Source: Crocinitomicaceae bacterium
GTDB lineage: Bacteria > Bacteroidota > Bacteroidia > Flavobacteriales_D > Sanyastnellaceae
NCBI GenBank assembly: GCA_002690915.1
Contig: NZGF01000037.1
Location: forward strand, 1-64,000
DNA length: 64,000 nucleotides
Reading direction: 5' to 3'
Shown here: positions 36,501 to 52,187 of the stretch, in pieces
How positions within the stretch are numbered: position 1 is the first letter of the stretch
Layout of the letters: each line of letters begins with the position of its first letter
Translations under genes and position numbers: made by a program
Notes under the pieces: model-generated
Told to the model about the DNA's origin: nothing
Databases searched by the model: none
What the model saw: only the letters and a program-made list of their open reading frames with translations

Positions 36501-38029
36501 TGGTCTCCATTGCTCAGGCGAAGCTGGGTGATGCTCGACTTGAGCATTTTCAGCATGAGTGCGTCGGGCGCAACGTAGCCATCCTGCGAAATTGTCCCTA
36601 CTTGGTAGGTCTCTCCACCAAGCGTGTATTCATAAGCAACGGCCAACACCTCAGCATTGTTAAGCGCCTGGCGCAGCGAGATGAAGCCAAGCCGCGCGTT
36701 GTACGTGAATTCCGTTGGCGCCAACTTCCGTGCGTTCCCCACCCGCTCGTAGTGTATGCCTTGAGTCAGCCCCAAACCCATGCCCGCGATGGCCCCGTTG
36801 GCACCAGTAAAACCAAGTACGTTCGGGTTGGTGACCATCATGTCAAACAGCTGGTTGTTCGCGTTGGTAGGATTGCGCTGTGCCGTGACGGAATCTCCAA
36901 CAAGGGTCTGGACAGGCAGATTCGTCGACACGTAGTCGGGATGCTCCCCCAAGTCGGTAAATCCAATGACATTACGCACGTCCTGGGTGTTGGCCTGCGT
37001 GTTGACGACCCACACCTCGATTCGGGTAATGTTGACGCCAGAGTTCGGCACAGGTAAGCTCTGCATCGCCACGTCGTATTGGTCGAGGAAGTACTGCGAG
37101 AGGAAATAGTGGCGATTCGCTTCGTAGTCGTCTGCGCGGATGTTGAATTCCTGGGTTTGGGCACCCCCTTCCACTTCGATTTCTTTCCGCTCGCCTTTTT
37201 GCTGTGAGAATACTGTCGTATTGAAAAGTCGGCCCCATTGAGTCTCCATCTTCACACCAAACAAACTCTGGCTGCCAGTAATGAGCGTTCCCGGGAGGGG
37301 CATGGAGATGTGCCCCGCTTCAAAATTCTTCAAGATGTCGTCCTCTTCGCCCTGAAAGCCGATGTTCATCTGGTTCTCAAAGTCGAACAGCGCTTCCGTA
37401 TTGTAGTTCGTTCCGAGATCGATTTTATCACCGATTTTTCCGCCGATATTCAGCTGAATACGCTGGTCAAAATCAAACGTAGTGATGCGGCGTTGACGTT
37501 CGGGAATTCGGGGGTTTTCAGTATCGGAGATGTTGACACCAAAAGTGAGTTCGGCTGAACCCTGTGGTTTGATCTCAATTTCGTTACTGCCAAAGATGGT
37601 CTCAAAGAGCTCGCTGTCCACCGTCAACTTAGGAGCGAAGGCGCGTTCCGCTTCATCGTCCTCGGTCTGAAGATCATTCCAGTATTCTGATAAGTTGCCG
37701 GTGATGTCGTAATCGAGGTATTCATCAAGTGTCAAAAACGTTGTTGGTCGGTACAACATCGTGTCACCAATGCGCTGCTGGATGCTGTACAGGCCCGTGG
37801 TCTCGTCAAAAACCACCTCGTACGTAAAGTTCTCAGGCCAAGCAAAATCGAATCCATCCGGGCTTTCCGATGGGTTGTATTGGTCCTCTCCTCCAAAGGG
37901 AAAGGGAAGGACTATAGGAAGCGAATCATTTGTCGTTTCCACATTGGTTTGAGCCCCAACGCCCGAAAGCAAAGAAAGCCCCAGTGCAAGGGCAAGAATC
38001 TGCGAAAAACGACGCTTCTTAAACTTCAT
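30533..38029 (-). CDS. sprA: Cell surface protein SprA, T9SS outer-membrane translocon
   Basis: 2498 residues, the size of SprA/Sov. SprA forms a very large outer-membrane barrel through which T9SS cargo leaves. A signal peptide (SQILALALGLSLLSGVGAQ) is followed by SprA features: PEKQRRITTF-like start (here PERQRRITTFDF), RMFMKGWTEPATLRFARLEL, VWVNEMRLADF and the final FNLNQ-type strand (SGVALRFNLNQ). The ATG at 38029 overlaps the ruvA stop (TGATG). Around residues 1660-1730 it carries a Gly/Arg/Ser-rich low-complexity stretch with four SARGGG units. Operon: maeB-ruvA-sprA-gcvH-vanZ. Confidence 0.95.
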   Translation of the reverse strand: MKFKKRRFSQILALALGLSLLSGVGAQTNVETTNDSLPIVLPFPFGGEDQYNPSESPDGFDFAWPENFTYEVVFDETTGLYSIQQRIGDTMLYRPTTFLTLDEYLDYDITGNLSEYWNDLQTEDDEAERAFAPKLTVDSELFETIFGSNEIEIKPQGSAELTFGVNISDTENPRIPERQRRITTFDFDQRIQLNIGGKIGDKIDLGTNYNTEALFDFENQMNIGFQGEEDDILKNFEAGHISMPLPGTLITGSQSLFGVKMETQWGRLFNTTVFSQQKGERKEIEVEGGAQTQEFNIRADDYEANRHYFLSQYFLDQYDVAMQSLPVPNSGVNITRIEVWVVNTQANTQDVRNVIGFTDLGEHPDYVSTNLPVQTLVGDSVTAQRNPTNANNQLFDMMVTNPNVLGFTGANGAIAGMGLGLTQGIHYERVGNARKLAPTEFTYNARLGFISLRQALNNAEVLAVAYEYTLGGETYQVGTISQDGYVAPDALMLKMLKSSITQLRLSNGDQAPLWKIMMKNVYSMQAFGLSEENFRLNIWYNDPATGVDLNYIPRNPLDGTLLLQLLGMDRLDINGMVQPDGVFDFVDNAATMGGTIHSQNGRIFFPSAEPFGSNLAQEIEERVEDPDLAANLIESIVFQPLYDSTKTAAQQIPSLNRFSIKGEFQSQTSSEIALQAMNIPEGSVTVTAGGVRLIENQDYTVDYQLGRVRIINDGLLESGRNIKVSLESNSLFSIQTKTMIGTRFDYAIGDRFNMGATMLNLRERPLTQKVNIGNEPVNNSIVGADFSYQAESQFLTELVDALPFYETSAGSSIDIAAEAAYLIPGHSRAIGQDGNAYIDDFEGSQSAIDIRSVNRWFLASTPKLQTSLFPEGNAEDSLIYNYNRAALSWYTVDPQFFRGSGLQDGQVSAEIKSDHRTREVLEGEVFPNRELPTGTPPNIPTLDLTFRPEDRGQYNYETPEGADGISAGLTVDGALADPSSRWGGIQRALTTTDFEMANIEYLQFWLMDPFNEDSENFTGGDFYINLGNVSEDVLNDSQLSYENGLPSANNTDLPTLEGVWGVYPDPITFNVVNAFDNTSGDYELQDVGLDGMPDAQEQEFFSDWLSDIVDWVTPDAYSEIVSDPSADNFRYFRNAEAQANDETILQRYERFNGYENNSNTGSPDGYPITSTTIPNTEDINQDITLSTIESYFQYKVSLRPQDLGEFNIGSNYITDTFEQVVTTADDQDRTIRWYQFKIPVREFDNRIGGITDFRSIRFIRMFMKGWTEPATLRFARLELIRGEWRRYLESLAGPQEVEPDDPSSTSFAISAVNIEENGNREPVPYVTPPGIIREIDVGTANQRRLNEQSLEMAVCGLKDGDARGAYRNINYDMRMYKRLRMYVHAEAGPDGTPLNDDDLTCFIRLGNDFENNYYEYEIPMTVTPWNTGDEDLIWPNENNIDIEFRKLQNLKVERPAGFPLFEEYEGLDSEYNARLAVKGNPNLANVVMVMVGVRNPDKDDNAFDSDDDGLDKCSVVWVNEMRLADFNQEGGWAVTAQMNAKLADLGNVSVAANMSTPGFGGLEQRIQERQRETIQAIDASGTLQLGKLLPKKLGVTLPMYLGYSQEVSTPQFDPLSPDIEMAEQQGLSDDRQNNAQTVNQLKSINFSNIKIDPQFGSGGGGSRDRNRDRGGAEAGGRRGGDGKGGKGGDKGEGLPDTNVDMGSARGGGSARGGGSARGGGSARGGDGGINFGLLKLLDPGNFSANFSYIESFNRDINIEYQINREYRGGLNYNFSHSPKNFAPFRKIGFIRKFDALKWLADFNFYLLPKQFTVGTQMNRIYETSRVRNNTEELLGIETNLLINTQVMKTWQWARNYALKYDLTKALKFDYTGQAQALVGEPAGEINREDPEAYQSYKDSVLVNLQNAGEITTYNHNVTGSYKLPFDKLPIVNFISSDIRYQGSYRWDRAPFSQDSLGATIQNSRNLSLNAQANFANLYKKIPGVKDLLNPPRRAPTRNEIRNEDRDGFGNAEEEEKVKLEINPLATLVRLIASVQNVSGTFTRNEGMLLPGYGRSARFVGMDEQLLAPGPLFVLGHQNTNWQGVQVRDFAIEAAENGWLVELPLQNQQYSQTYQETFNVRANLEPIKYLKIELTANRSINQNYTSFFRFDDQLNDFVYDSPNETGQFSATVMSWNTAFAKDDVEDEFNSELWDSFLTTHRIIVSQRLNEVNYQLDEPENTGYYPGFGGTSQDVTIPAFVAAYLGYDPQEVPLDVFNTPVAPNWRVSYDGLTKSEFFKQYFKRFNLNHSYRSTLTTNYVTNLNYAENGNGLPTAIDQSEFGNYISERQFNVVSLSEQLSPLIGVDMTIKTEGENEPQIKVELKRDRNVAFGLTNYQITETKSEGLVIGFGYKFKDVPNPFIKTYGKLPVKMLKETDLVLRADVNIRDNRTIIRKMVERQNQVTAGQKLVSIKMSADLEVSDKLTMRAFYDHQITNPYISTSFATSNIRSGVALRFNLNQ
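32861..32927 (-). repeat. 18-bp tandem repeat in sprA encoding Ser-Ala-Arg-Gly-Gly-Gly
   Basis: Units at 32861-32878, 32879-32896 and 32897-32914 plus a partial fourth to 32927. The second and third are identical; the first differs by three bases. The units keep the frame and sit inside a longer Gly/Arg/Asp/Lys-rich region (about 32840-33070). Confidence 0.9.
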
Positions 38030-38625
38030 CACAACCTTTTCAAAGCGTGTTTGATTAAGTCCTCAACCGCAGTCATATCGGGTGAATCCTTCATTATTTG
38101 GTCCAGTGTTTTCTCACAACGGGCCCGGTCGAAACCAAGGGTCGTGAGCGCAATTAACGCCTCTTGCTGCGAATTATTGTATCCGCCCTGCAATCCACTG
38201 GAAGATGGCATGGCCGGTATATCGATGGCGCCCAACTTGTCCTGCAAATCAATGATTATCCGCTGGGCTGTTTTCGATCCAATCCCTTTGACGCTCTTCA
38301 TGGCATTGACATCGCCGGATTGAATCGCTTGTGCTGCCTGGTCTACATTCATTGCACTCAAAATCATTCGAGCCGTGCTAGCGCCCACACCACTCACACC
38401 GAGCAGTAACAGGAACATGCTGCGTTCCTCAGGCCTACTGAATCCATACAACAGCTGCGCGTCCTCCCGAACGACCAGATGAGTGTGCAACTGGACTTTT
38501 TCATCGTTCCCCAATTGCTCAAAGGTGTTTAGGCTAATGTGCACTTGGTAACCTACCCCACCGCATTCAACAACGGCATACGTTGGCGTCTTCTCTACTA
38601 ATTTTCCAAGCAGGTGATGAATCAT
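38029..38625 (-). CDS. ruvA: Holliday junction branch migration protein RuvA
   Basis: 198 residues, normal length. The N-terminal OB fold has GVGYQVHIS, the helix-hairpin-helix region has LLGVSGVGASTARMILS and VKGIGSKTAQRIIIDL, and the C-terminal domain III that contacts RuvB is present (EALIALTTLGFDRARCEKTL). RuvA binds the four-way junction and loads RuvB. Its ATG overlaps the maeB stop (ATGA). ruvB is not adjacent; its 3' end appears at the far edge of this window. Confidence 0.97.
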   Translation of the reverse strand: MIHHLLGKLVEKTPTYAVVECGGVGYQVHISLNTFEQLGNDEKVQLHTHLVVREDAQLLYGFSRPEERSMFLLLLGVSGVGASTARMILSAMNVDQAAQAIQSGDVNAMKSVKGIGSKTAQRIIIDLQDKLGAIDIPAMPSSSGLQGGYNNSQQEALIALTTLGFDRARCEKTLDQIMKDSPDMTAVEDLIKHALKRL

Positions 38626-40943: not shown

Positions 40944-41711
40944 TTATTGGACCAAAAATTGTTTCCCAACACGATCACCAGCAGGTGTCGTGAGGGATAA
41001 AATGTACATCCCCGCTGGGTATTCTGCGGCATCGATGTAGACAACACCCTGTTGTGCACGGAGGGTTTGTTGTTTAATCAATTGACCTGCAGCGTTGTGA
41101 ATGGTAAATTCAGCACGAGAAGCTCCATTCAATTGGTAGGGAAATGAAGAAAGACCCCTCACCGGTTGCGGGAAAATCGGCGATGCCTCGATGGTTGATT
41201 CGGCTATGTTCAGCGCGCAGTTTTCCGCGTCCAAGCAATACAAAACTTGCTGGCAAGCGCCCGCAGCAACATCCCCTGCGGGATGGAAGCAATATTCGAA
41301 GGCCGTGACACCGGCAACATCAGCAGGGTAGTAATCTGCAATGAAAGTCGTGTCCGTTTCATTGGGAAAGAGCTCAACCAAGTATCCTTCTGTCGAGAAC
41401 GAGCTGTATTGCCCGTACGGATAGCACAAAGGTCCCCAGCAAAAGCGGTCGTATGCGCCCGGCGCGTCTGCGTCATAAGGCAAGTTGTAGGGGCTGACCA
41501 ATTGGATGATGTTCCGCGTGACCATCAAGCTTAATGTATCCTCGGTGAGGTTGGTCACGTCCCAATGCAAAGCAATTTCTTCGTTTTCTGGATCGTCCAG
41601 CGCACCCTCAAAAACTTCAATTGCATTGACCAACGTTGGCTGCGCCCACGAAGCGGCAGGGCTCATCACCGCACTAAGCAGAACTGTAAAAAACAGCGTT
41701 TTCATCTTCAT
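40944..41711 (-). CDS. Secreted protein with T9SS type A sorting domain
   Basis: 255 residues from the ATG at 41711 (KMKTLFFTVLLSAVMSPAASWAQ). A longer in-frame start at 41762 would hide the signal peptide. The body is a beta-rich domain with an NEEIALHWDVTNLTED segment and several Cys (FCWGPLCYPYG, YCFHP, CQQVLYCLDAENC). The last ~80 residues (SPIFPQPV, then FTIHNAAGQLIKQQTL, then AGMYILSLTT) are a T9SS type A sorting domain. Function unknown; no homologue named. Confidence 0.82.
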   Translation of the reverse strand: MKMKTLFFTVLLSAVMSPAASWAQPTLVNAIEVFEGALDDPENEEIALHWDVTNLTEDTLSLMVTRNIIQLVSPYNLPYDADAPGAYDRFCWGPLCYPYGQYSSFSTEGYLVELFPNETDTTFIADYYPADVAGVTAFEYCFHPAGDVAAGACQQVLYCLDAENCALNIAESTIEASPIFPQPVRGLSSFPYQLNGASRAEFTIHNAAGQLIKQQTLRAQQGVVYIDAAEYPAGMYILSLTTPAGDRVGKQFLVQ

Positions 41712-41716
41712 AAGGG

Positions 41717-41724
41717 CGAAGATA
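41717..41724 (-). promoter_or_regulatory. Start-proximal -7-like element TATCTTCG
   Basis: The octamer TATCTTCG on the minus strand ends 5 nt before the ATG at 41711, the same arrangement as at nadC. It is one base off TAnnTTTG. Confidence 0.35.
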
Positions 41725-41818
41725 CCGAGATTGGCGTGGAATTTGTCTCTACAGGGATACAAGCTTTAATGAGTTTCCGTTTAATTTGGCTCCGCAAGAA
41801 TTGAAACACCCCTCCACC

Positions 41819-42316
41819 ATGAACCGATTCCAATCGTTCCTGCTTCTTACCTGCCTGCTCGCCCTGGGCCTTGGGACTTCTTTTTCCCAATCCCTTCCGG
41901 CGGTGCAATTGAAAAACCTCGAAGGGGAAACCGTCTCCACCGGCGACTTGGCCGAGGAAGGGCAACCCACACTGATTTGCTTCTGGGCTACTTGGTGCAG
42001 CCCTTGCAAACGCGAATTAAACAACTACGCTGAACTCTACGAAGAGTGGCAAGAAGAAACCGGAGTGAATATCATTGCCGTGAGCATCGACGACCAGCGA
42101 AGCATCCGCCGCGTAGCGCCATACGTGAATAGCGTTCTTTGGGATTACGAGGTGTTGCTTGATCCCAACAAAGACTTTGCCCGTGCAATGCAAGTGGTCA
42201 ATGTTCCGCACACGTTTTTGGTCAATGGCGAAGGCAAAATTGTCTGGCAACATAACAACTATGCAGACGGTGACGAGGAAGAGGTGTACGAGGAACTCAT
42301 GAAACTCGTCGAATGA
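41819..42316 (+). CDS. TlpA-like thioredoxin-fold protein
   Basis: 165 residues from the ATG at 41819. Signal peptide (FLLLTCLLALGLGTSFSQ), then a thioredoxin fold with FWATWCSPCKREL (Cys60, Cys63) and the cis-Pro segment NVPHTFLVNGEG. It probably reduces or swaps disulfides in the periplasm. The next gene (DUF6029) overlaps its stop by 4 nt (ATGA), so the two are made together. Confidence 0.9.
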   Translation: MNRFQSFLLLTCLLALGLGTSFSQSLPAVQLKNLEGETVSTGDLAEEGQPTLICFWATWCSPCKRELNNYAELYEEWQEETGVNIIAVSIDDQRSIRRVAPYVNSVLWDYEVLLDPNKDFARAMQVVNVPHTFLVNGEGKIVWQHNNYADGDEEEVYEELMKLVE

Positions 42317-43998
42317 GGCGTATCACCTTCCTATCCATAGTTGCATTGTGCTTGAGCGGAACAGCCTGGAGCCAAGGCGGTGAAGCTGAATCCGGAACAG
42401 TTACTGGAAATGTGCAGATGCTCTGGCAGTCCTACAGCGAGGACCCAGCGATAGGAGCCATTGTGCCCCCCGAAAAGACAGGGTTCAATGCCTTCGGTAA
42501 CCTCATCTACAACCAAGGCGGCTTCTCAGCCGGCTTACGTTACGAATCCTACCTCTCGGCCGTGCTCGGATTTCCGGGGCGATTCAAAGGGAGCGGAGTG
42601 GGCTACCGGTTTGCGCGGTATGCCGATCCCACCGGGAAAGTCGACTTCACCGTGGGCAATTTTTACGAGCAATTCGGCAGCGGCATTGTGCTGCGGGCCT
42701 ACGAAGAACGAGCGCTGGGCATCGACAATGCGCTGGATGGCGTTCGGCTCATCCTGCGTCCGGTCGACGGCATCGAGGTAAAGGCCTTGTATGGTCGGCA
42801 GCGTTTGGATTTCGACAGCCGCCTCATCAACGGACCCGGCACTGTACGAGCGGTGGACGGCACGGTCGACCTGAACTACCTGCTCGCGGAGCAAGGCGGC
42901 ACCGATTGGAAAACCAAGGTGACCTTGGGGGCGAGTTTCGTAAGCAAATTCCAATCCGGCGAGACCATCTCCAAAGACTCCCTGTTGCTGACGCTGCCGG
43001 AAAACGTGGGCGCCTGGTCGTACCGGCTTGATGCCCTCCGTGGCGGCTGGTCTGCAGGCATCGAATACGCCGGCAAAATCAATGACCCCAACGCGGACAA
43101 CGGCTACATCTACCGCAACGGCGAGGCCCTTTTGCTGAATTTGGGCTACACCCAACGCGGGCTCGGTATCAGCTTGAGCGCGAAAACCGTGGACAACATG
43201 AGTTTCCGTTCGGACCGCGACGTGCTCCTCTTCGATTTGCCCATCAACTACATTCCTGCGATTACGCAGCAGCATACGTACAACCTGGCAGCCACGTTGT
43301 ACCCGTATGCCACCGTCATATCAGGTGAGTCCAGCGCCAGTGCTGAGGTCTTTTACAGCATCCCCAAGGGCACCGCGCTCGGCGGAAAGTACGGCACCAA
43401 AATCAGCGCCAACTTTGCCGCTGCCAATGATTTGGATACCACCAACCTCGCCGGTGTCGAAGGCCTTGTGAACGGCTACGAACGAAACTCTTGGGGCTTC
43501 GGCCCCACCAAATTCGTGCGGGACTTTAACGTGCAAGTCAGCCGCAAAGAATCGAAGAAATTCAAGTGGAAGTACACCTACTACAACTTCCAATTCAACA
43601 CCCTCGCGACGCCAGTGACCACGACGTTCAAAGGCATCGTCTACGCGGATATTCACGTCCTCGAGACGCAAATCAAAACGCGGAAACGCGAGAGCCTCCG
43701 TACGGAGTTTCAAGCGCTATTTACCGAACAAGACAAGGGCGATTGGGCCACCGTTGTGGCCGAATACACCTGGAGCCCGCACTGGTTTGCTAGCATCATC
43801 GACCAGTACAACTTTGGTAACCCAGACGAAAGCGCTCGGGTGCATTACCTGTACGCCGCTGTCGGACGCATTGACGGGCCGCATCGACTGTCCGTTGGTT
43901 ACGGAAAACGCCGGGAAGGCATCTTCTGCATCGGCGGAGTCTGCCGTGCCGTTCCAGCTTCAAATGGGTTTGAGTTGAATTTCTCTTCGAGTTTCTAA
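42313..43998 (+). CDS. DUF6029 family outer-membrane protein
   Basis: 561 residues. Signal peptide (FLSIVALCLSGTAWSQ), then family features: GNVQMLWQSY, NQGGFSAGLRYESYL, GRFKGSGVGYRFARY, FYEQFGSGIVLRAYEERALG and IDNALDGVRL. Regular alternating strands and a terminal Phe (FSSSF) suggest an outer-membrane barrel. Function unknown. Coupled to the TlpA-like gene. In Bacteroidota I recall this family near thioredoxin-like and Omp28 genes, as here. Confidence 0.85.
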   Translation: MRRITFLSIVALCLSGTAWSQGGEAESGTVTGNVQMLWQSYSEDPAIGAIVPPEKTGFNAFGNLIYNQGGFSAGLRYESYLSAVLGFPGRFKGSGVGYRFARYADPTGKVDFTVGNFYEQFGSGIVLRAYEERALGIDNALDGVRLILRPVDGIEVKALYGRQRLDFDSRLINGPGTVRAVDGTVDLNYLLAEQGGTDWKTKVTLGASFVSKFQSGETISKDSLLLTLPENVGAWSYRLDALRGGWSAGIEYAGKINDPNADNGYIYRNGEALLLNLGYTQRGLGISLSAKTVDNMSFRSDRDVLLFDLPINYIPAITQQHTYNLAATLYPYATVISGESSASAEVFYSIPKGTALGGKYGTKISANFAAANDLDTTNLAGVEGLVNGYERNSWGFGPTKFVRDFNVQVSRKESKKFKWKYTYYNFQFNTLATPVTTTFKGIVYADIHVLETQIKTRKRESLRTEFQALFTEQDKGDWATVVAEYTWSPHWFASIIDQYNFGNPDESARVHYLYAAVGRIDGPHRLSVGYGKRREGIFCIGGVCRAVPASNGFELNFSSSF

Positions 43999-44018
43999 CG
44001 AAATATGCCGTAATACCC

Positions 44019-44026
44019 TATTTTTG
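44019..44026 (+). promoter_or_regulatory. -7 promoter element TATTTTTG
   Basis: TAnnTTTG match 41 nt upstream of the ATG at 44068, in the gap after the DUF6029 gene; gives a leader of about 36 nt. Confidence 0.45.
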
Positions 44027-44067
44027 AGGACTTAGTGAGAAAAAAACAAACCAAATCGTTAATTAAT

Positions 44068-45543
44068 ATGAAGCACATTTACGCCTTGATCGCTGCTCTA
44101 ATGGTCGGAACAGCATCTTTCGCGCAGTTACCTGACGGTAGCATCGCGCCCGACTTCACCGCCACGGACATCAATGGCGTGGAGCACAACCTCTACGACC
44201 TTCTCGACGAAGGGAAGAAAGTCATTTTGGATTTCTCCGCAACTTGGTGTGGTCCATGTTGGAGCTATCACACCGCTGGAGTTTTTGAAGAGCTCAATGA
44301 GCAATACGGGCCGGAGGGCACAGATGAGCTGCGTATATTTTATCTCGAGTCCGACGATACCACTACCGACGCTGATCTAAACGGAACGGGGACTGCTACT
44401 CAAGGCGATTGGGTCACAGGAACATCGTACACGATTGTTGACAACGCAGGTTCAATTTTCGATGAGTACTCGAATGCTTACTACCCAACCATCTACACGG
44501 TGTGTCCAAACCGCATTTTGACAGAATCAGGGCAAGTAGATGCATCAACACACTACTCCATCTTCTCTGCAAACGATTGCGCGGCGGCATCTCTTCCGAA
44601 TGATCCCGCATTGCTCAGTTACACAGGTGGCACTACTGCATGCCCTGGCGAGCCAGTCAACATGTCAGTTGATATGATGAACTTAGGGATTACCAACCTG
44701 CAGTATGCAACCATTGACGTCATGGTCGGTGCCAACTCCGTACTCTCATACGACTGGAGTGGAGACCTCGATACCTATGGTATTGCAAGCGTAGACCTTG
44801 GAACAGCATCCTTTGATGCAGACACAGATTTCACCATTGAAATCACTTCAGCCGATGATAACGACGCCAACAACTCTTCTGACGGAGCCGTTGAGCTTGC
44901 GACGGAAGGAACTTCCTTGATCCACGTTGAAATCATGGTGGACAACTGGCCACAAGAAATTGGGTGGTCAATCACCGATGATATGGGCAACGTTGTTGAA
45001 GAGGTAGCTGAAGGTGAAATTGCGGGTGCTGAAGGTGACGAATTCGAGTGGTGGGTTAGCGTACCTGCTACCGGCTGTTACACATTCAATATTTCGGATG
45101 CTTACGGAGACGGCATCAACGGAACCATCTGGGGTTCAATTGATGGTTACTGCACCGTGAAGTCATACAACGACGATATCGTCTATGTCAGCACCATCTA
45201 TGACTACAACGGTTCATACAGCTATGAAACTGAGTCTGCTGGCATGAGTGTAACATCGATGACAGTGGGCGTTGAAGAGCAGACGCTCAGCGATGTTACT
45301 CGCGTATTCCCGAATCCATTCGTTGACCAAACGAATATGCAGTTCACCACGTCCGAGGCTGCTGAGGCCTCACTGGTTGTTTACAACCTCGTCGGTGAGC
45401 AGGTCATCAACGACAACTTGGGAACATTGCCAGCCGGTGAGCACAACCACGTATTGGACTTCAATGGCGTGACCGCAGGCATCTACTTAGTGACATTGAA
45501 CGCAGGAGGCCAGACCACAACCATGCGTGTGACTTTGAAGTAA
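44068..45543 (+). CDS. T9SS-exported protein with thioredoxin/AhpC-like domain (paralogue 1)
   Basis: 491 residues from the ATG at 44068 (KHIYALIAALMVGTASFAQ). The thioredoxin-like domain starts at PDGSIAPDFTATDING and has FSATWCGPCWSYH (Cys61, Cys64); further on YTVCPNRIL carries another Cys shared with its paralogue. Middle beta domains follow, including a GCYTFNISDAYGDGING segment. The last ~80 residues (VFPNPFVDQTNMQFTT, then LVVYNLVGEQVI, then AGIYLVTL) are a T9SS type A sorting domain. A thiol-redox protein exported to the surface is the simplest reading; the substrate is unknown. An upstream start at 44035 is in frame but hides the signal peptide. Confidence 0.88.
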   Translation: MKHIYALIAALMVGTASFAQLPDGSIAPDFTATDINGVEHNLYDLLDEGKKVILDFSATWCGPCWSYHTAGVFEELNEQYGPEGTDELRIFYLESDDTTTDADLNGTGTATQGDWVTGTSYTIVDNAGSIFDEYSNAYYPTIYTVCPNRILTESGQVDASTHYSIFSANDCAAASLPNDPALLSYTGGTTACPGEPVNMSVDMMNLGITNLQYATIDVMVGANSVLSYDWSGDLDTYGIASVDLGTASFDADTDFTIEITSADDNDANNSSDGAVELATEGTSLIHVEIMVDNWPQEIGWSITDDMGNVVEEVAEGEIAGAEGDEFEWWVSVPATGCYTFNISDAYGDGINGTIWGSIDGYCTVKSYNDDIVYVSTIYDYNGSYSYETESAGMSVTSMTVGVEEQTLSDVTRVFPNPFVDQTNMQFTTSEAAEASLVVYNLVGEQVINDNLGTLPAGEHNHVLDFNGVTAGIYLVTLNAGGQTTTMRVTLK

Positions 45544-45569
45544 CCGCTTCACAACAACTAAAATTGCGA

Positions 45570-45604
45570 AATCCGCACCTCCTTCCTGAGGGTGCGGATT
45601 TTTC
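45570..45604 (+). terminator. Intrinsic terminator between the two thioredoxin-like T9SS genes
   Basis: AATCCGCACC pairs with GGTGCGGATT around a CTCCTTCCTGAG-type loop, followed by five T. It lies 26 nt after the stop and separates the paralogues into different transcripts. Confidence 0.85.
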
Positions 45605-45648
45605 GTTTAAAAAGGTGCATATTCACATTCTCAACCACTGCTTAAGCC

Positions 45649-47085
45649 ATGAAACACCTGCTCGCCGCCCTTGCACTTGCTATCTCTTCCATCGGATTCA
45701 GTCAACTCCCGAATGGAAGCGTAGCACCTGATTTCACAATCACCGACATCGAAGGTGAGGAACACAACCTCTACAGCTACCTCGACTCTGGCTATGCCGT
45801 CATCATTGATTTTTCGGCAACGTGGTGTGGTCCATGCTGGAATTACCACACGAGCGGTGTATTCGAGGAAATTTATGAAGCCCATGGACCGGATGGGACG
45901 AACGAGGTGCGCATCCTCTTCGTTGAGTCCGACAATAGCACCACAGACGACGACCTCCACGGAATCGGCACAAATACCTGGGGCGATTGGACTGCAGGCG
46001 TCGAATACCCCATTGCGGACAACGGAGGCAGCATTTTCGATTTGTATCAGTGCTCCTTCTACCCCACCATTTTCACGGTGTGCCCCAACCGCATCATCCA
46101 ACAAACTGGACAAGCCACAGCTGAAGGCCACATCAATTTCTTCCAATCCGGTTCGTGCGCACCAGCGACGATGCCCAATGACGTGAGTCTGCTGCAATAC
46201 CTAGGGCCCAACCGCACATGCCCCGAAACCCCGACTCCACTTTCGGTCAAGGTCATGAACCAAGGCACCGCGCCCTTGACAGCCTTCACCCTGACAGCGA
46301 GTACCTTGTTCGGTGCGGAACTCATCACCTACGATTGGACCGGGAACCTCGACACGTACGAAATGGAGATTGTCGAATTGGGCGAAACCATCTTCCCTTC
46401 GACGTCGATGTTCTTTATTGAGGTCACCTCTGAAGACGACTTCGATGGCAACAACAGCGTCTCTGAAACCATGAATCTCACTAGTGAAATAGCCACGTCA
46501 CTGGTTCGCGTGAGTTTCACCACGGACAACATGCCCGGCGACAACCGCTGGGACATCACAGACGGCGCAGGCGACGTGGTGGCGAGCACCGCCTATGGCG
46601 ACATGACCGAAAACCAAACCGAATACGAATGGTGGGTCAACCTGGGCACAACCGGATGCTACAATTTTACCGTCTACGATCAACTTGGAAACGGTGGCAA
46701 CATCGAATGCGATATCAGTACCTTCAACGAAGATGGCGTCAACATCAACACCATCTTCACGGTCAACAACAACGGCAATTGGACGGCCCTGAACAAAGGG
46801 TTCCTGGTCAATGAGGTCAATATGAATATTGGAGAGCAATTCGCTTTACCCATCTCAGCCTACCCAAATCCGACCAATGGCCTCCTTACCCTACAAGGCC
46901 TAAGCTCCTCGACCAACCAACGCGTCGAGATTCGCGACGCACAAGGGAAGCTAATCTTCAGCCAGCTGCGTCCAGCGACAGGTGCCTCTTGGGTACTCGA
47001 CCTCAACACACTGAACAACGGGCTGTATATCCTCACCGTCATAGACGGTGACCGCCGCTTCACCGAATCCATTGTACGCTCCTGA
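45649..47085 (+). CDS. T9SS-exported protein with thioredoxin/AhpC-like domain (paralogue 2)
   Basis: 478 residues. Same layout as the gene upstream: signal peptide, PNGSVAPDFTITDIEGEEHN, FSATWCGPCWNYH (Cys60, Cys63), FTVCPNRII, middle beta domains with an EYEWWVNLGTTGCYNFTVYD segment, and a T9SS type A end (SAYPNPTNGLLTL, then VEIRDAQGKLIF, then NGLYILTVI). Clearly a tandem duplicate that has diverged. It begins an operon with the Omp28 and PorT-like genes: the next ATG shares one base with its stop. Confidence 0.88.
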   Translation: MKHLLAALALAISSIGFSQLPNGSVAPDFTITDIEGEEHNLYSYLDSGYAVIIDFSATWCGPCWNYHTSGVFEEIYEAHGPDGTNEVRILFVESDNSTTDDDLHGIGTNTWGDWTAGVEYPIADNGGSIFDLYQCSFYPTIFTVCPNRIIQQTGQATAEGHINFFQSGSCAPATMPNDVSLLQYLGPNRTCPETPTPLSVKVMNQGTAPLTAFTLTASTLFGAELITYDWTGNLDTYEMEIVELGETIFPSTSMFFIEVTSEDDFDGNNSVSETMNLTSEIATSLVRVSFTTDNMPGDNRWDITDGAGDVVASTAYGDMTENQTEYEWWVNLGTTGCYNFTVYDQLGNGGNIECDISTFNEDGVNINTIFTVNNNGNWTALNKGFLVNEVNMNIGEQFALPISAYPNPTNGLLTLQGLSSSTNQRVEIRDAQGKLIFSQLRPATGASWVLDLNTLNNGLYILTVIDGDRRFTESIVRS

Positions 47086-47960
47086 TGGCTTGGCATCTAC
47101 ACTTTCTTCCCCTCATCGGCGCTGCGGCACTTATTCTTTCGGGCTGCGACGAACTGGATGATCCCGTCATCCCCGTTACTACGAACTACTTGGAAGCTGT
47201 CTACGGACCGGCTCCGTCGTTTGAGCCGCTCGCTCAGAACGATGCCGTCAAGCGGGTGCTGGTGGAAGACTTCACGGCGCACCAATGCGGCAATTGCCCT
47301 GCCGCCGCCATCATTGCCGAGGACATGGTGGCGAATTATGAGGGTAAGATTAGCGCGCTGGCCATCCATGCAGGCAACCTGGCGAATACCGACGACGATT
47401 ACTTCAATACGGATTGGACGACAGAAGAAGGCGATCTATTCTGGGATCAATTGGATTTCCAAGCAAATCCCGTGGGCCGAATAAATCGGATAAACGGCGT
47501 AGGTTCATTCTGGGCCCCGGCGCAGTGGGAGGAAAAGGCAGTAGAGGAGATGAACCTGGCCCCCATTCTCGGTCTCCAGTACGATTACGAATGGGTCCCC
47601 GCGAACGGACACTTGAACCTACACCTGCACGGAACCTTTTACGATGACGTCTCAGGGCCCATCCAAGTGGCTTGGCTCATCTTGGAGTCCCACATCTTCG
47701 ATTACCAGTTGGATTATTCCGCCGACCCTGAAGTAGTCGCCGATTATGAATTTAACCATGTCCTCCGGGGTTCGGTTCACGGCGCCTTAGGCCTCGGATT
47801 TGGTGATGTCGCAGGGGGAGCATCCACCGGCGATGTGGCCACCCAATCGGCAACCTTCTCTTGGAACGAGTCGTGGGTGATTGAAAACGCCACGGTGCTG
47901 GCGGTGGTCTCCGATGCAAACGGCTACGTACTGAACGTCGCTGAAATCCACATGAACTAA
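47085..47960 (+). CDS. Omp28-related lipoprotein with CxxC
   Basis: 291 residues. A lipobox (ALILSGC, Cys21) and then the Omp28 signature VLVEDFTAHQCGNCPAAA with Cys68 and Cys71, a thioredoxin-like CxxC. The following IIAEDMVANYEGKISALAIHAG also fits. Omp28 was named from Porphyromonas; its role is not settled, though the fold suggests thiol chemistry. One-base overlaps (TGATG and TAATG) join it to the genes on both sides. Confidence 0.87.
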   Translation: MAWHLHFLPLIGAAALILSGCDELDDPVIPVTTNYLEAVYGPAPSFEPLAQNDAVKRVLVEDFTAHQCGNCPAAAIIAEDMVANYEGKISALAIHAGNLANTDDDYFNTDWTTEEGDLFWDQLDFQANPVGRINRINGVGSFWAPAQWEEKAVEEMNLAPILGLQYDYEWVPANGHLNLHLHGTFYDDVSGPIQVAWLILESHIFDYQLDYSADPEVVADYEFNHVLRGSVHGALGLGFGDVAGGASTGDVATQSATFSWNESWVIENATVLAVVSDANGYVLNVAEIHMN

Positions 47961-48592
47961 TGCGGGCCATCGCATCCTGGATCGTCGGCTTGATACTCGT
48001 ATGTGTGCCATGCTCAGCCGCTGAGGCGCAAGGAGATCCCTTGCGGTTTTCGGCTCGACTGCATGGTGGATTTTCGGCCACGCAAGTGCACGGTGATCAA
48101 ATCTCAGGCTTCAACAAATTTGGCCTCTGCGCCGGCGCGACTATTGACATACGGCGTTCGGAACGGCAAGGCGTCCAGTGGGGTATTTTGTACACCCAGA
48201 AGGGCAGCCGCCGGGTTCCCGACACCAAGAATGGCGACTACAATTCCTGGCGGTACCGCTTCACTTACATCGATCTGCCTTTAATCCGTGCATGGAATCC
48301 TGCACCCGATTGGTGGTGGGGTGTGGGCATTCAGCCCAGCGTGCTCGTCTCAGCAGAGGAGGACTTTTACGGCAATGGGTACAGCGAACTTAGCTACCTC
48401 AAACTGAATACCGTCGACGTCGGAGGCGTGCTGCAGGCAGGATACGCCGTGTCGGAGGCATCCGCCGTGGAAGTTCGGCTGTCGCAAAGCCTCTTGCCCA
48501 TCAGCGAACGCCCCGATCAGCCCGTACAGCGCTGGGATAATTTCATGATGAACATGGCCATCCAATGGATGGTCACGTGGCGCTTAGGCTAA
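47960..48592 (+). CDS. PorT-family outer-membrane beta-barrel protein
   Basis: 210 residues. Signal peptide (SWIVGLILVCVPCSAAEAQ), then ARLHGGFSATQVHGDQISGFNKFG, the opening of the PorT-like barrel family (OMP_b-brl_2), and about eight alternating strands ending in MAIQWMVTWRLG. It is last in the paralogue 2-Omp28 operon. Its stop is 2 nt from that of the convergent propeller gene. True PorT acts in the T9SS, but many family members do not, so function is left open. Confidence 0.8.
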   Translation: MRAIASWIVGLILVCVPCSAAEAQGDPLRFSARLHGGFSATQVHGDQISGFNKFGLCAGATIDIRRSERQGVQWGILYTQKGSRRVPDTKNGDYNSWRYRFTYIDLPLIRAWNPAPDWWWGVGIQPSVLVSAEEDFYGNGYSELSYLKLNTVDVGGVLQAGYAVSEASAVEVRLSQSLLPISERPDQPVQRWDNFMMNMAIQWMVTWRLG

Positions 48593-48594
48593 CC

Positions 48595-51500
48595 CTACTG
48601 CTTCCCTGTGCCCTCGTAGATACGGGAGGGCGACCGGTCAACGGCCTCAGCTGCCTCGAGCCATTCCAACCACAAGCCCTCCTGAATCGCCTTCACTTCC
48701 TCAGCGAAAGCTTTCCCTTCATCGCGGAGGCGCTCCAAGGCTCGCTGCGCATTGCCGCCTGGTGCGTCGGTACCTCCCGTTACGGAGAAGGCCGTCCACA
48801 GGATGGAATTCAATCGTTCGGTCACACTGCCCGTCCCTTTGTAATCCCGCGGCTGGTAGTAGACCTCTTCGATGCGCGTCAGTTCGCCGTCCAACGAATC
48901 CGCCAAAGCCGTCGCATCTTCTTTGAGCGAGTCCGGAATCCACTTCAAATCATCTTTGACGGTACCCATCGTGGTCAACATGCGCTGAACCTCGTTCATG
49001 GCCTCCACAATCGGCTTGGCGGCTTTCATGGCGATGCGCTGGTGCAAATTCCGCGCTTCATGGGCCTGTCGGTTGTAAGGCACACGCGGATCCGGGTAAA
49101 CGGTCACCGGCGTTGAGCTGGAATGATCGCCCAAGTTCATGGCAAGGGTGTACGTTCCGGGTAACACGTCCGGTCCACCTCCGCTGGGCTGGTCCTTCTT
49201 CTCCTTCAACTCACGCTGAGGCCAATCCATGCCGTTGGTATCGAAGCGCCAGCGCATGGTTTGAATGCCCCCATCAGCAGTGAGCGCTCCGTTGCGCAGC
49301 GTATCGCCTTCGGTATTTAAAATGCTCCATGCCAAATCATCTTTTCCGTAGGCCTCAGCCGTATCCGGGTGGACATAAAATTGGACCCGCGCTCCACCGC
49401 CGTAATTCGCTCCACTCCAGTAGTGATCGGCCGGGAAACGAGCACCTGCATGGCGCCGAAAATTCACCTGATAAGCATCGGGGATGGCAAACAATCGCAA
49501 GCTTTCCTCCATGAGTCCGTTGCCTTCTGCCGCGAGCGAACGCAATGGCGCCAAATCGTCAATGACATATGCAGCTCTACCAAACGTACCCAAAATCAAG
49601 TCTCCGTCGCGCGGATGGATGACCATGTCACGCACCGGAACCGAGGGCACTTCGTGTGCCCAGCGTTTCCAATTCGCCCCGCGGTCAAAGCTCACAAACA
49701 ACCCTTCCTCTGTTCCCAAGAACAACAAAGAAGGCACTTCCGGATCTTGCACTACGCTCAGCACGTGCCCAGTCACCTCACCGCCTTCTAGCACCAAACG
49801 CACCCAGGACGCACCGCCATCGGTGGTGCGGTACAAGTACGGTTGCCAATTGTTACGCCGGTAATCGTTGACCACAACATACACCTCATCGGCATCGTGA
49901 GGGCTCACGTGAATCTGCGGAATCCAAGCTCCTTGAGGAAACCGCTTGATGCTCGCCGCGTGGTCCGTCCACGACGCGCCATCATCGGTAGTGTGCTGGA
50001 TGCGGCCGTCATCCGTGCCGACCCAGACTTCCCCGCTGCGCAACGGATTGGGGGCAATGCAGAGGATGGTGCAATGATTTTCGGCCTTCGTCGCATCGAT
50101 GGTCAAGCCTCCGGATTCAGCTTGATTTTGCTTTTCCGGATTGTTGGTTGTCAGGTCTGGACTCTTAACAGCCCACGTGTTCCCGCGGTCAGCACTGTGG
50201 TGCAAGAATTGGGACCCAAAGTAGACACCGTTGGCGTCGAACGGATCGGCAGCAATAGCCGCGTTCCACGCGAACCGCAGGGCAGTAGTGTCCTGCTGAA
50301 TCGGCTGAATCGACGTCCCGTCCCCGTTGCGCAAATCGATGCGCGAAAGACCGCCGCCTTGGTACATAGCGTACGCGGTGTTCAGGTCTTGTGGGGCAGG
50401 CAAGACATCAAACCCATCGCCGAATAAGATTTCCTGCCAGTCTTCGTTTCGGATGCCTCCCACGTGCCACACCTCACTGGGGCCTACCCACGAACCGTTG
50501 TCCTGCATCCCACCATATATGCGATATGGAACGGCATCGTCTACACTGATGTGGTAAAATTGACCGAGCGGAAGATTGTTAACGAACGACCAGGTCACAC
50601 CGCCATCGCGGCTGATGTTCAAACCTCCATCGTTGCCGTCGATGAGGAAATCCGGGTCATCAGGGTGGATGTAAAACGCGTGGTGATCTGGGTGCACCCC
50701 GCTGTACGGCAGGATGGTTCGGAAGGTCTTGCCACCATCCTCACTGAGGTCCACCATGGAGTAGAGGTTGAACAATCGCCTCTCATCCGAGGGATCAGCG
50801 TAGATGTCAGCATAATAAAACGGTCGATTTCCCACCTGCTTTCCCTGAATGAGCGACCAATTCAGTCCGCCATCATTGGAATGGTAAAGACCTGTCTCGC
50901 TCGATTCAATCAGGGCATAGACGATGTCCGGATTGGCTGCACTGATGGTCAAGCCGATGCGGCCCAGCTCGCCGGCGGGAAGCCCTTCGTCTTCGGTCAG
51001 CTGTTTCCAATTGTCGCCGCCGTCGTGGGTGATGTACAAGCCACTGCCTTCCCCACCACTGGTGAAGAACCACGGTTCCCGTCGGTGCGACCACAGTGCA
51101 GCGATGAGTTTATCGGGATTCGAAGGGTCGATAATCATATCAGCCACCCCGGTGCGCTCATCGATGTAAAGTTGATGGGTCCACGTCTTACCGCCATCGG
51201 TAGTTTTGTAAATACCCCGGTTTGGGCTGTCACCCCACGCAGTACCGATGGCACCGACCCAAACTGTTTGGTGGTCGGTGGGGTGCACGATGATGCGGTG
51301 GATGTTGCGCGTGTCCTCCAGACCCATCAATTCCCAGCTGGAGCCGCCGTCAATGCTGCGGTACACCCCGCGGCCACTGGAATGCGAATTGCGCGGATTG
51401 CCTTCACCCGTCCCCACCCAAATGACATCGGGATTTGACGGAGCAATGGCCAAGGCTCCGATGCTTTGGGTCGCTTCATCGTCGAAGAGCGGCTCCCATT

Positions 51501-51735
51501 CCACACCGGCCGTAACCGAACGCCAGAGGCCGCCGCTCGCCGTTCCGATGTAGATGACTTCAGGACGGTCCCGTTGAACATCAATCGCAGTCACTCGCCC
51601 ACTCATGGCGCCCGGACCGATGTGGCGAACGTTCATGCCTTCGATGATGGCGTCTACATCTTGCGCTTGCGAGGGACTAAACCCCGCAGCCAATACGAGC
51701 AATACGCTCCATATTTTGAATTTCATGGTGTGCAT
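48595..51735 (-). CDS. Secreted Asp-box (BNR/VPS10-like) beta-propeller protein
   Basis: 1046 residues. Signal peptide (FKIWSVLLVLAAGFSPSQAQ), then GPGAMSGRVTAIDV and about ten Asp-box motifs (SIDGGSSW, TTDGGKTW, THDGGDNW, SNDGGLNW, SRDGGVTW, TTDDGASW and others), likely two propellers as in sortilin- or xyloglucanase-like proteins. A beta domain (about 760-880) and a helical C-terminal domain (KAAKPIVEAMNEVQRML) follow. No T9SS domain or catalytic set is evident. The ATG at 51735 shares one base with the LEA14-type gene stop; a second ATG at 51726 gives a cleaner signal peptide. Confidence 0.82.
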   Translation of the reverse strand: MHTMKFKIWSVLLVLAAGFSPSQAQDVDAIIEGMNVRHIGPGAMSGRVTAIDVQRDRPEVIYIGTASGGLWRSVTAGVEWEPLFDDEATQSIGALAIAPSNPDVIWVGTGEGNPRNSHSSGRGVYRSIDGGSSWELMGLEDTRNIHRIIVHPTDHQTVWVGAIGTAWGDSPNRGIYKTTDGGKTWTHQLYIDERTGVADMIIDPSNPDKLIAALWSHRREPWFFTSGGEGSGLYITHDGGDNWKQLTEDEGLPAGELGRIGLTISAANPDIVYALIESSETGLYHSNDGGLNWSLIQGKQVGNRPFYYADIYADPSDERRLFNLYSMVDLSEDGGKTFRTILPYSGVHPDHHAFYIHPDDPDFLIDGNDGGLNISRDGGVTWSFVNNLPLGQFYHISVDDAVPYRIYGGMQDNGSWVGPSEVWHVGGIRNEDWQEILFGDGFDVLPAPQDLNTAYAMYQGGGLSRIDLRNGDGTSIQPIQQDTTALRFAWNAAIAADPFDANGVYFGSQFLHHSADRGNTWAVKSPDLTTNNPEKQNQAESGGLTIDATKAENHCTILCIAPNPLRSGEVWVGTDDGRIQHTTDDGASWTDHAASIKRFPQGAWIPQIHVSPHDADEVYVVVNDYRRNNWQPYLYRTTDGGASWVRLVLEGGEVTGHVLSVVQDPEVPSLLFLGTEEGLFVSFDRGANWKRWAHEVPSVPVRDMVIHPRDGDLILGTFGRAAYVIDDLAPLRSLAAEGNGLMEESLRLFAIPDAYQVNFRRHAGARFPADHYWSGANYGGGARVQFYVHPDTAEAYGKDDLAWSILNTEGDTLRNGALTADGGIQTMRWRFDTNGMDWPQRELKEKKDQPSGGGPDVLPGTYTLAMNLGDHSSSTPVTVYPDPRVPYNRQAHEARNLHQRIAMKAAKPIVEAMNEVQRMLTTMGTVKDDLKWIPDSLKEDATALADSLDGELTRIEEVYYQPRDYKGTGSVTERLNSILWTAFSVTGGTDAPGGNAQRALERLRDEGKAFAEEVKAIQEGLWLEWLEAAEAVDRSPSRIYEGTGKQ

Positions 51736-52187
51736 CACAATTGAATCTTTATGTTCTGTTTTGAATCCACAGGGATGCCAACGGCGATGCCCAGTGCACT
51801 TCCTGTCACTTCTCCTTTTACGCTGACCTCGAGTTCATCCCCCGCAATGAAACGCACCAAATTAGCCTCCAAAATTGACAATAGCGCAGACGCATCTGCT
51901 TGGACTGTAAGCCGCAATATTTGATTCGGACCTTTCGGAATGGACTGAGCGTAAGGCAATTGGACTTGCCCAACCACTTTCCCACGAATGGCCAACTGCA
52001 CGTCTACCGATTCAGCAGCAATGGCTATCGGATTGGGATTGTTCACCACAAGGGCCAACTCACCTCCTATGCCTCCTCGACCAATGGACAGCTCGCCCAA
52101 TCCGTCTACGCGAACGACCTCAACCGGCTGCAACGCCGCACAGCCGATGAGGGTTACCAAACTCAGGCAGGCGAAAATGCCCCTCAT
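51735..52187 (-). CDS. LEA type 2 (LEA14-like) lipoprotein
   Basis: 150 residues. Lipobox VTLIGC (Cys16). The domain carries LALVVNNPNPIAIAAESVDV and later IPKGPNQILRLTVQADASAL, the conserved core of LEA14-type folds (fibronectin-like). Members are found in stress or envelope roles, with no known reaction. It starts over the M20 peptidase stop (ATGA) and ends over the propeller gene start. Confidence 0.82.
   Translation of the reverse strand: MRGIFACLSLVTLIGCAALQPVEVVRVDGLGELSIGRGGIGGELALVVNNPNPIAIAAESVDVQLAIRGKVVGQVQLPYAQSIPKGPNQILRLTVQADASALLSILEANLVRFIAGDELEVSVKGEVTGSALGIAVGIPVDSKQNIKIQL

Follow-up and report, generated by a model that had tools for sequence, protein, structure and literature searches.

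The genome of a Crocinitomicaceae bacterium (phylum Bacteroidota; assembly GCA_002690915.1, contig NZGF01000037.1) holds a cluster of envelope genes around the outer-membrane barrel DUF6029 that belongs to a real and widespread, and apparently undescribed, envelope redox module. The cluster lies at positions 41819-48592 of the window, by which we mean the whole analysed stretch of 64,000 nucleotides (positions 1 to 64,000 of the forward strand). It comprises six genes, all on the + strand, in the order TlpA, DUF6029, T9a, T9b, Omp28 and a small barrel, where T9a and T9b denote two thioredoxin-like proteins with a sorting domain of the type IX secretion system (T9SS). A comparison of genomes showed that a TlpA orthologue of its own, a DUF6029 with an invariant Cys pair and an Omp28/HBP35-type thioredoxin occur together, mostly as neighbours. 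We read the set as a dedicated thiol-disulfide module of the envelope, centred on the barrel. The best single mechanism for it is a relay that carries reducing equivalents across the outer membrane, a choice we make with a little less than even confidence.

The original prediction, made from the letters of the window, had described an island of TlpA with WCSPC, DUF6029, two T9SS cargos with WCGPC, Omp28 with CGNC and a barrel, and knew of no system of such make-up. The island was found as described, and no such system was found by us among the matches listed in the mostly open-access literature. Absent from that prediction were the invariant Cys pair of DUF6029, the dedicated TlpA and one natural TlpA-DUF6029 fusion; the Cys pair and the fusion, together with the presence/absence profile of the genes, strengthen the interpretation as a relay.

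The DUF6029 barrel and its cysteine pair

DUF6029 (561 residues, 42313..43998, + strand) matched the Pfam family PF19494 over its full length (E 2.8e-159, 531.7 bits versus a cut-off of 27, profile positions 3-538 of 538). The family was present in 57 of 60 relatives and in 98 of 395 genomes sampled across the phylum, the source genome being included in both counts, and relatives were encoded by at least 590 of the 593 candidate stretches in the named collection, where Hymenobacter and Fluviicola are represented. The AlphaFold2 model of the protein, with a mean predicted local distance difference test score (pLDDT) of 92.2 and a predicted template modelling score (pTM) of 0.85, is read by us as a barrel of 24 strands. 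The closest solved folds were those of the ushers FimD and PapC (Z 17.7 and 17.1, root-mean-square deviation (rmsd) 4.5 and 4.9 Å, respectively), a likeness that reflects a wide barrel and does not prove kinship. By sequence, no solved structure was a convincing relative, the best match being a ribosomal protein at E 0.7.

The window protein has only two Cys residues beyond its signal peptide, C539 and C544, within C539-I-G-G-V-C544-R (encoded at 43927..43946, + strand). Both were kept in 99 of 101 loci, the remaining two loci being truncated by a contig end, and no further column of the alignment of these loci held 15 or more Cys. The motif mostly reads CxGG[VI]CR, with different middle residues in distant relatives, and the form C-x-G-G-[VI]-C-R was found near the C-terminus of 77 out of 77 named DUF6029 proteins, the motif itself being part of one of the two patterns used to search for that set. 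Barrels of this kind usually keep both termini in the periplasm. Because of this and of the 24-strand reading, the Cys pair is predicted to lie on the last hairpin, in the loop between the final two strands, facing outward. This loop was the most conserved of all DUF6029 loops (3.81 and 3.09 bits). More generally, the predicted outward loops were more conserved than the periplasmic turns (p 0.003 in the wide set and p 0.053 in the named set) and no different from the strands (p 0.23 and 0.37).

The motif was also considered for other barrels of the source genome and rejected there: two other DNA matches turned up, and no reading frame listed at these places carries the motif within a barrel protein. 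One short frame, overlapping a longer gene, reads CCGGICR. As to additional copies of DUF6029, genome G237 carries two at full length (contigs C59 and C96), both adjoined by an Omp28 match, and in another genome a second copy lies in four pieces (G049:C3:213886-215559), with the intact copy on a different contig.

Conserved partners of the barrel

The neighbourhood of DUF6029 was compared across 200 loci that hold a DUF6029 frame, in one set of 120 and another of 80 named loci, which share some genomes (e.g. L163, L094). One genome (G101) had been fetched twice, so that the 120 loci represent 119 genomes; L247 was dropped for want of a DUF6029 frame under our own model, and L248 was kept with a weak DUF6029 match below the cut-off. 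Genes were called by a simple choice of open reading frames of our own, which missed a TlpA beside DUF6029 in G386, and contig ends were scored as misses. Immediately upstream (-1), 86 of the first 101 loci had a same-strand neighbour (15 had none), and 78 of these 86 matched AhpC-TSA/Redoxin in Pfam. Immediately downstream (+1), there were 91 same-strand neighbours (10 loci had none), and all but the window's own were scanned; among these 90, 61 matched Omp28 and 17 AhpC-TSA in Pfam, and 62 matched the NCBIfam Omp28 lipoprotein model. With our own profile models, a thioredoxin-fold gene was found on the same strand at -1 in 95 of the 120 loci (80 TlpA, and 15 scoring better with the T9a thioredoxin model) and in 72 of the 80 named ones, and an Omp28 or T9a-type gene at +1 in 92 and 78, respectively. 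Since our models were seeded with genes that resemble those of the window and were found in the same loci, the Pfam and NCBIfam tallies serve as an independent check.

Counted per genome, 100 of the 119 had a TlpA-type gene at most three genes away from DUF6029 (the fusion in G349 being set by hand, and a limit of 260 residues excluding the TlpA frames called too long in L090, L119 and L125), 104 had an Omp28 or long T9a-type gene there, and 90 had both partners, representing 29 of 34 families. The parts stay together even where the order has changed (TlpA behind Omp28 in L071, L074 and L085) or the strand (divergent TlpA in L134-L137, divergent Omp28 in L105-L107). As the clustering recurs across the phylum it is more than chance, and TlpA-DUF6029-Omp28 is, judged from the gene neighbourhoods, the conserved core of the module. 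The recurrence of the genes in other genomes, on which the original prediction depended, was thus borne out, and so was the conservation of their CxxC pairs: WCxxC is found in 167 of the 167 TlpA-type genes at -1, and CxxC within residues 21-140 in 135 of the 135 Omp28-type proteins at +1.

The same association is visible in the distribution of the genes over 394 genomes, the source genome being left out. Omp28 was present in 75 of the 97 genomes with DUF6029 versus 7 of the 297 others (Fisher p 8e-52, uncorrected for phylogeny), and five of those seven matches were weak (E 7.9e-4 to 1.9e-6). Once the 19 distant relatives of family f35 are set aside, the former ratio becomes 75 of 78. Two genomes, G213 and G437, have a strong Omp28 and no DUF6029 match.

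The TlpA-type protein of the window (165 residues, 41819..42316, + strand) is a thioredoxin-fold protein, predicted to be periplasmic, with the active Cys 60 and 63 in WCSPC (41996-42007, + strand). It matched AhpC-TSA with E 1.9e-24 (86.4 bits versus a cut-off of 26). Among the named NCBIfam models (ResA, DsbE and TlpA) the best was ResA with 81.6 of the required 170 bits, and the protein is therefore called TlpA-like and assigned to no named equivalog. Genome-wide best matches to this protein were determined for 25 genomes, all positive for DUF6029. In 12 out of 12 genomes the best match was the DUF6029 neighbour or, in G349, the fusion; its lead was usually large (E 2.9e-69 versus 1.2e-14 for the next match in G025) and smaller in G169 (3.3e-16 versus 1.6e-10). 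The other 13 comprised 12 genomes picked for having no TlpA counted beside DUF6029 and one (G438) whose locus was unread beforehand; TlpA proved adjacent in 2 and a strong orthologue was encoded elsewhere in 11 (E 1.8e-64 to 2.3e-50). Linkage is thus sometimes lost while TlpA and DUF6029 are both kept, and TlpA is, by these sequence relationships, the dedicated partner of DUF6029. The source genome has six more, unlinked TlpA matches (23-37% identity) besides T9a and T9b. Monophyly of the module TlpAs was considered and not adopted: one branch splits 27 of them from 21 paralogues, with a support of only 71/45.

In G349 the two proteins are joined. A single frame of 667 residues (L114:8439-10442) opens with a leader, followed by a thioredoxin domain (WCVPC) and the DUF6029 barrel, with the TlpA and barrel matches contiguous within the frame and no second signal peptide or hydrophobic leader seen before the barrel. 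The genome is 99% complete in three contigs and the fusion lies on the one of 3.15 Mb, which makes an assembly join an unlikely cause. The fusion is known from this one genome. With respect to a possible electron donor, the source genome has one DsbD_TM match, and in G267 a DsbD gene lies directly 3' of DUF6029 on the same strand (L106:6861-9014), the called frames overlapping. Beyond G267, the fetched loci offered a single weak DsbD match, in a frame of 155 residues, which was rejected.

The Omp28 lipoprotein (291 residues, 47085..47960, + strand) matched PF11551 with 63.7 bits (cut-off 34.9), missed the cut-off of the NCBIfam model NF033782 (103.8 of 150 bits) and is the sole match of its kind in the source genome. 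Its three Cys are the lipid-bearing Cys 21 and the pair of the CGNC motif (Cys 68 and 71), and all three were invariant in 71 aligned sequences. The lipobox, identified by reading, has Cys 21 followed by DELDD. The AlphaFold2 model (pLDDT 95.2) combines a thioredoxin fold with a beta-sandwich, and among solved structures it came closest to HBP35 (5y1a, Z 22.9), followed by 2axo (Z 17.0) and the Omp28 structure 2r2c (Z 10.3). Two further ideas about Omp28 were rejected. For selenocysteine, the TGA concerned, in G090, lies away from the CxxC, and the frame runs intact through CIPC to an ordinary stop. As for Omp28 and T9a forming one full-length family, hhalign joined 41 columns round the CxxC (probability 72%), and these therefore represent a shared thioredoxin motif that does not establish a single family.

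The two T9SS cargos are similar to each other (41.7% identical across 494 columns by blastp). T9a (491 residues, 44068..45543, + strand) has WCGPC (Cys 61 and 64) in a thioredoxin domain just above the Pfam cut-off (Redoxin, E 2.6e-6, 27.7 versus 26.6), whereas that of T9b (478 residues, 45649..47085, + strand), likewise with WCGPC, falls just below it (AhpC-TSA, E 1.9e-5, 25.0 versus 26). Both end in a type A sorting domain (TIGR04183, 42.7 and 44.0 bits versus a cut-off of 23; Por_Secre_tail, E 5.9e-11 and 7.2e-12), and SprA_N was found in the source genome. The original prediction counted such proteins as full members. However, long T9SS thioredoxins (420-620 residues, WCxPC) were found within -4..+5 of DUF6029 in 45 of the 200 loci, locus sets that overlap, and by this count they are accessory to the module.

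The last gene, for a small outer-membrane barrel (210 residues, 47960..48592, + strand), fared no better as a full member: a narrow model of our own detected it between positions -4 and +5 in 38 loci of the set of 120 and in 30 of the 80 named loci, and its one candidate redox pair, CVPC (Cys 15 and 18), was discarded as it lies, by reading, in the signal peptide. The earlier label 'PorT-type' holds as far as a general barrel family is concerned and no further, since only OMP_b-brl_2 (PF13568, 52.1 bits) passed its cut-off; TDE1717 matched weakly. A role of this barrel in the module is doubtful.

Stop and start codons overlap between TlpA and DUF6029 (at 42313), T9b and Omp28 (47085) and Omp28 and the small barrel (47960). 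A possible hairpin at 45569-45601, seen by eye and unlisted by a scan that allowed loops of up to 8 bases, may separate T9a from T9b. The source genome is a draft of 2.39 Mb that is 84.9% complete, and the closest named locus among the matches listed is from an uncultured Flavobacteriales bacterium, with a DUF6029 that is 86% identical. Before the module, a divergent gene (40944-41762) encodes a T9SS-tailed protein of about 257 residues (TIGR04183, 31.0 bits versus a cut-off of 23); it sits beside the module elsewhere in the genus and in the family, too. Just upstream lies sprA (30533-38032), encoding the T9SS translocon, with ruvA and maeB, an order that recurs among the listed loci of the genus, family and order. 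The module is followed by a gene for a protein of 1047 residues (48595-51738), a putative sortilin/BNR-repeat protein, also placed after it in several family relatives among the loci listed.

A proposed reducing relay and its alternatives

Models and signals together point to a periplasmic TlpA, to Omp28 as a surface lipoprotein and to T9a and T9b as surface cargo of the T9SS. In such a layout DsbD of the inner membrane would recharge (reduce) TlpA, which would dock at, or enter, the periplasmic mouth of the DUF6029 barrel and pass reducing equivalents to C539/C544. From this pair they would reach Omp28 or the T9SS thioredoxins on the outside, and these would in turn reduce or isomerise the disulfides of surface proteins. 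The distance between TlpA and the outward pair, the weak point of the scheme, might be covered in several ways: TlpA could reach into the lumen, the hairpin could fold in, or the exchange could precede insertion, as in the assembly alternative below. In its explicit form the scheme is a dithiol relay that starts in the periplasm, passes through or at a 24-strand barrel whose cysteines act as a gate, and ends at surface thioredoxins anchored by lipid or by the T9SS; we put this form forward tentatively, with distinctly less than even confidence. A relay across envelope layers had been suggested by the original prediction, of which the unit, the different predicted layers of its members and the retained CxxC pairs have stood, whereas the relay itself is something that we infer. 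In its favour count the linkage of the genes, the dedication of TlpA and its fusion to the barrel, the presence/absence profile, the conserved Cys pair, the HBP35-like build of Omp28, the DsbD_TM match together with the DsbD gene in G267, and the likeness of the barrel to usher pores. So does the signal of Omp28: a lipobox was found in 89 of the 135 Omp28-type proteins at +1, and an acidic residue occurs within five positions of its Cys in 87 of these 89 (two or more in 75), a count confined to the Omp28 of the module; acidic residues at this place form the core of a surface-export signal, according to the portion of PMC5080379 available to us.

Several observations weigh against such a relay. 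The passage of reductant through the barrel and the direction of electron flow are proposals. The barrel has a single Cys pair, which topology puts at the outer end, with TlpA on the inner side. Position 64 of TlpA, after the CxxC, and position 538 of DUF6029, before C539, covary (rank 3 by mutual information and rank 6 of 60,125 by shared changes on the tree), but over eight other settings (58,671 to 74,965 pairs) the rank varied from 1 to 397; the signal is mostly a clade split, depends on the setting and is suggestive only. When barrel positions covarying with TlpA or with Omp28 were sorted by side, neither side was clearly preferred. DsbD is linked to DUF6029 in one case (G267), and all 8 genomes of family f44 have TlpA unlinked from the barrel. 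Finally, the 19 distant f35 relatives lack an Omp28 at the Pfam level, although 8 of the 9 f35 loci read retain a WCKPC gene ahead of the barrel and, behind it, a gene with CxxC that matches the T9a model. In L157, L246 and L249-L254, genes with CPHC, CTHC, CSHC or CPLC replace Omp28 after the barrel, two of them consecutive in 7 of these 8 loci.

Of the alternatives, the one that survives best concerns the assembly of the barrel. C539-C544 would be a structural or switching disulfide, TlpA a dedicated reductant or isomerase acting before insertion, Omp28 a partner lipoprotein, and the function of the barrel something else. The model for this is LptD, which depends on disulfide rearrangement and on LptE. 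The dedication of TlpA and its fusion to the barrel in G349 are in line with such a role, and the covariation of TlpA 64 with DUF6029 538 would weakly fit a direct contact. Moreover, TlpA could touch the hairpin while the barrel is still in the periplasm, so that the topology poses no problem. However, assembly accounts neither for the thioredoxin nature of the third partner, with its invariant CxxC, nor for the presence of T9SS-exported thioredoxins, and a single Cys pair should require no isomerase. We consider this explanation unlikely, albeit one to be taken seriously.

Reductive import is improbable as well. Here Omp28, T9a and T9b would reduce or strip a ligand (haem, copper or a disulfide compound), the barrel would admit it, and TlpA would complete the reduction. 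The Omp28 model resembles HBP35, a hemin binder that supports growth on little hemin as far as the accessible part of PMC2907840 describes it. Foldseek returned the copper receptor OprC for the barrel, and structure alignment returned OprD-type porins and AlgE, but these porin matches (Z 14-17, rmsd about 6) reflect a shared barrel only. No ligand-specific family recurs among the first 25 Pfam families listed for -1 and +1, a weak argument against import that is confined to these two positions.

It is rather implausible that the proteins together isomerise the disulfides of T9SS cargo at the surface, with the barrel holding them, even though SprA_N is nearly universal in genomes with DUF6029 (96 of 97, versus 206 of 297 others), sprA lies a few genes off in the window and in other listed loci of the family and order, and the window has two T9SS-tailed thioredoxins. 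DUF6029 is absent from 206 of 302 genomes with SprA, and one genome (G287) has DUF6029 without SprA; the module is therefore neither required for the T9SS nor wholly tied to it. An accessory role in the T9SS would be compatible with the relay, as one use of it. A role for DUF6029 as a porin for capsule or slime, raised in passing in the accessible text of PMC9603273, the only source on DUF6029 in the literature searched, where many of 28 homologues of a plugless Wzi barrel were strongly similar to DUF6029 by HHpred, is very improbable, since the conserved neighbours at -1 and +1 are thioredoxin-fold proteins, with no export genes, and the invariant Cys pair would be left unexplained.

Comparison with known systems

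The reducing relay would give DUF6029, a family of unknown function, and Omp28 a functional frame, and it raises the question of whether reducing power can be delivered past the outer membrane of a Gram-negative cell. If true, Bacteroidota would have controlled reducing power on the cell surface. Parts of such a system are found elsewhere. The Omp28 model superimposes on HBP35 of Porphyromonas gingivalis (PDB 5y1a) with an rmsd of 2.5 Å over 218 residues at 16% identity; the profiles match (E 1.6e-8), and both proteins combine a thioredoxin domain with a beta-sandwich. The available part of PMC2907840 places HBP35 on the surface of P. gingivalis, where it binds hemin and has a thioredoxin activity that requires its Cys pair; the recombinant protein reduces insulin, and the gene is described there as a 1.1-kb transcript, with no barrel module. 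HBP35 is exported by the T9SS with a C-terminal domain. The Omp28 of the window instead carries a lipobox, and Por_Secre_tail did not match it at E 1; it is therefore HBP35-like in build and not classed as HBP35. For the Omp28 family itself (PF11551), the 2r2c domain is 24% identical to the window protein (Z 10.3), and the records found attach no barrel partner or role to it.

The relays from DsbD to TlpA, ResA and CcmG share with the module a TlpA-type WCxPC protein, the DsbD_TM match in the genome and, in one instance, DsbD as a neighbour. Dsb-type thiol relays are not known to extend beyond the periplasm, whereas the partner here is an outer-membrane barrel with its own Cys pair, followed by a predicted surface thioredoxin. 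Surface lipoproteins of the thioredoxin family with a redox partner are represented by Etrx1/Etrx2 of Streptococcus pneumoniae (PMC3914529, as far as its text was available). Their host, however, is Gram-positive, with no outer membrane in the way.

Chain B of the Mtr complex, which we take to be MtrB, was found at rank 18 in the Foldseek search with the DUF6029 model, by shared shape only. In MtrCAB, a porin complex carries electrons across the outer membrane (PMC5971433, in the part accessible to us). MtrCAB works through chains of haems, whereas no CXXCH is found at the Cys pairs of TlpA, DUF6029 and Omp28 (e.g. WCSPCK and CGNCP). If true, the relay would be the thiol counterpart of these porin-cytochrome conduits.

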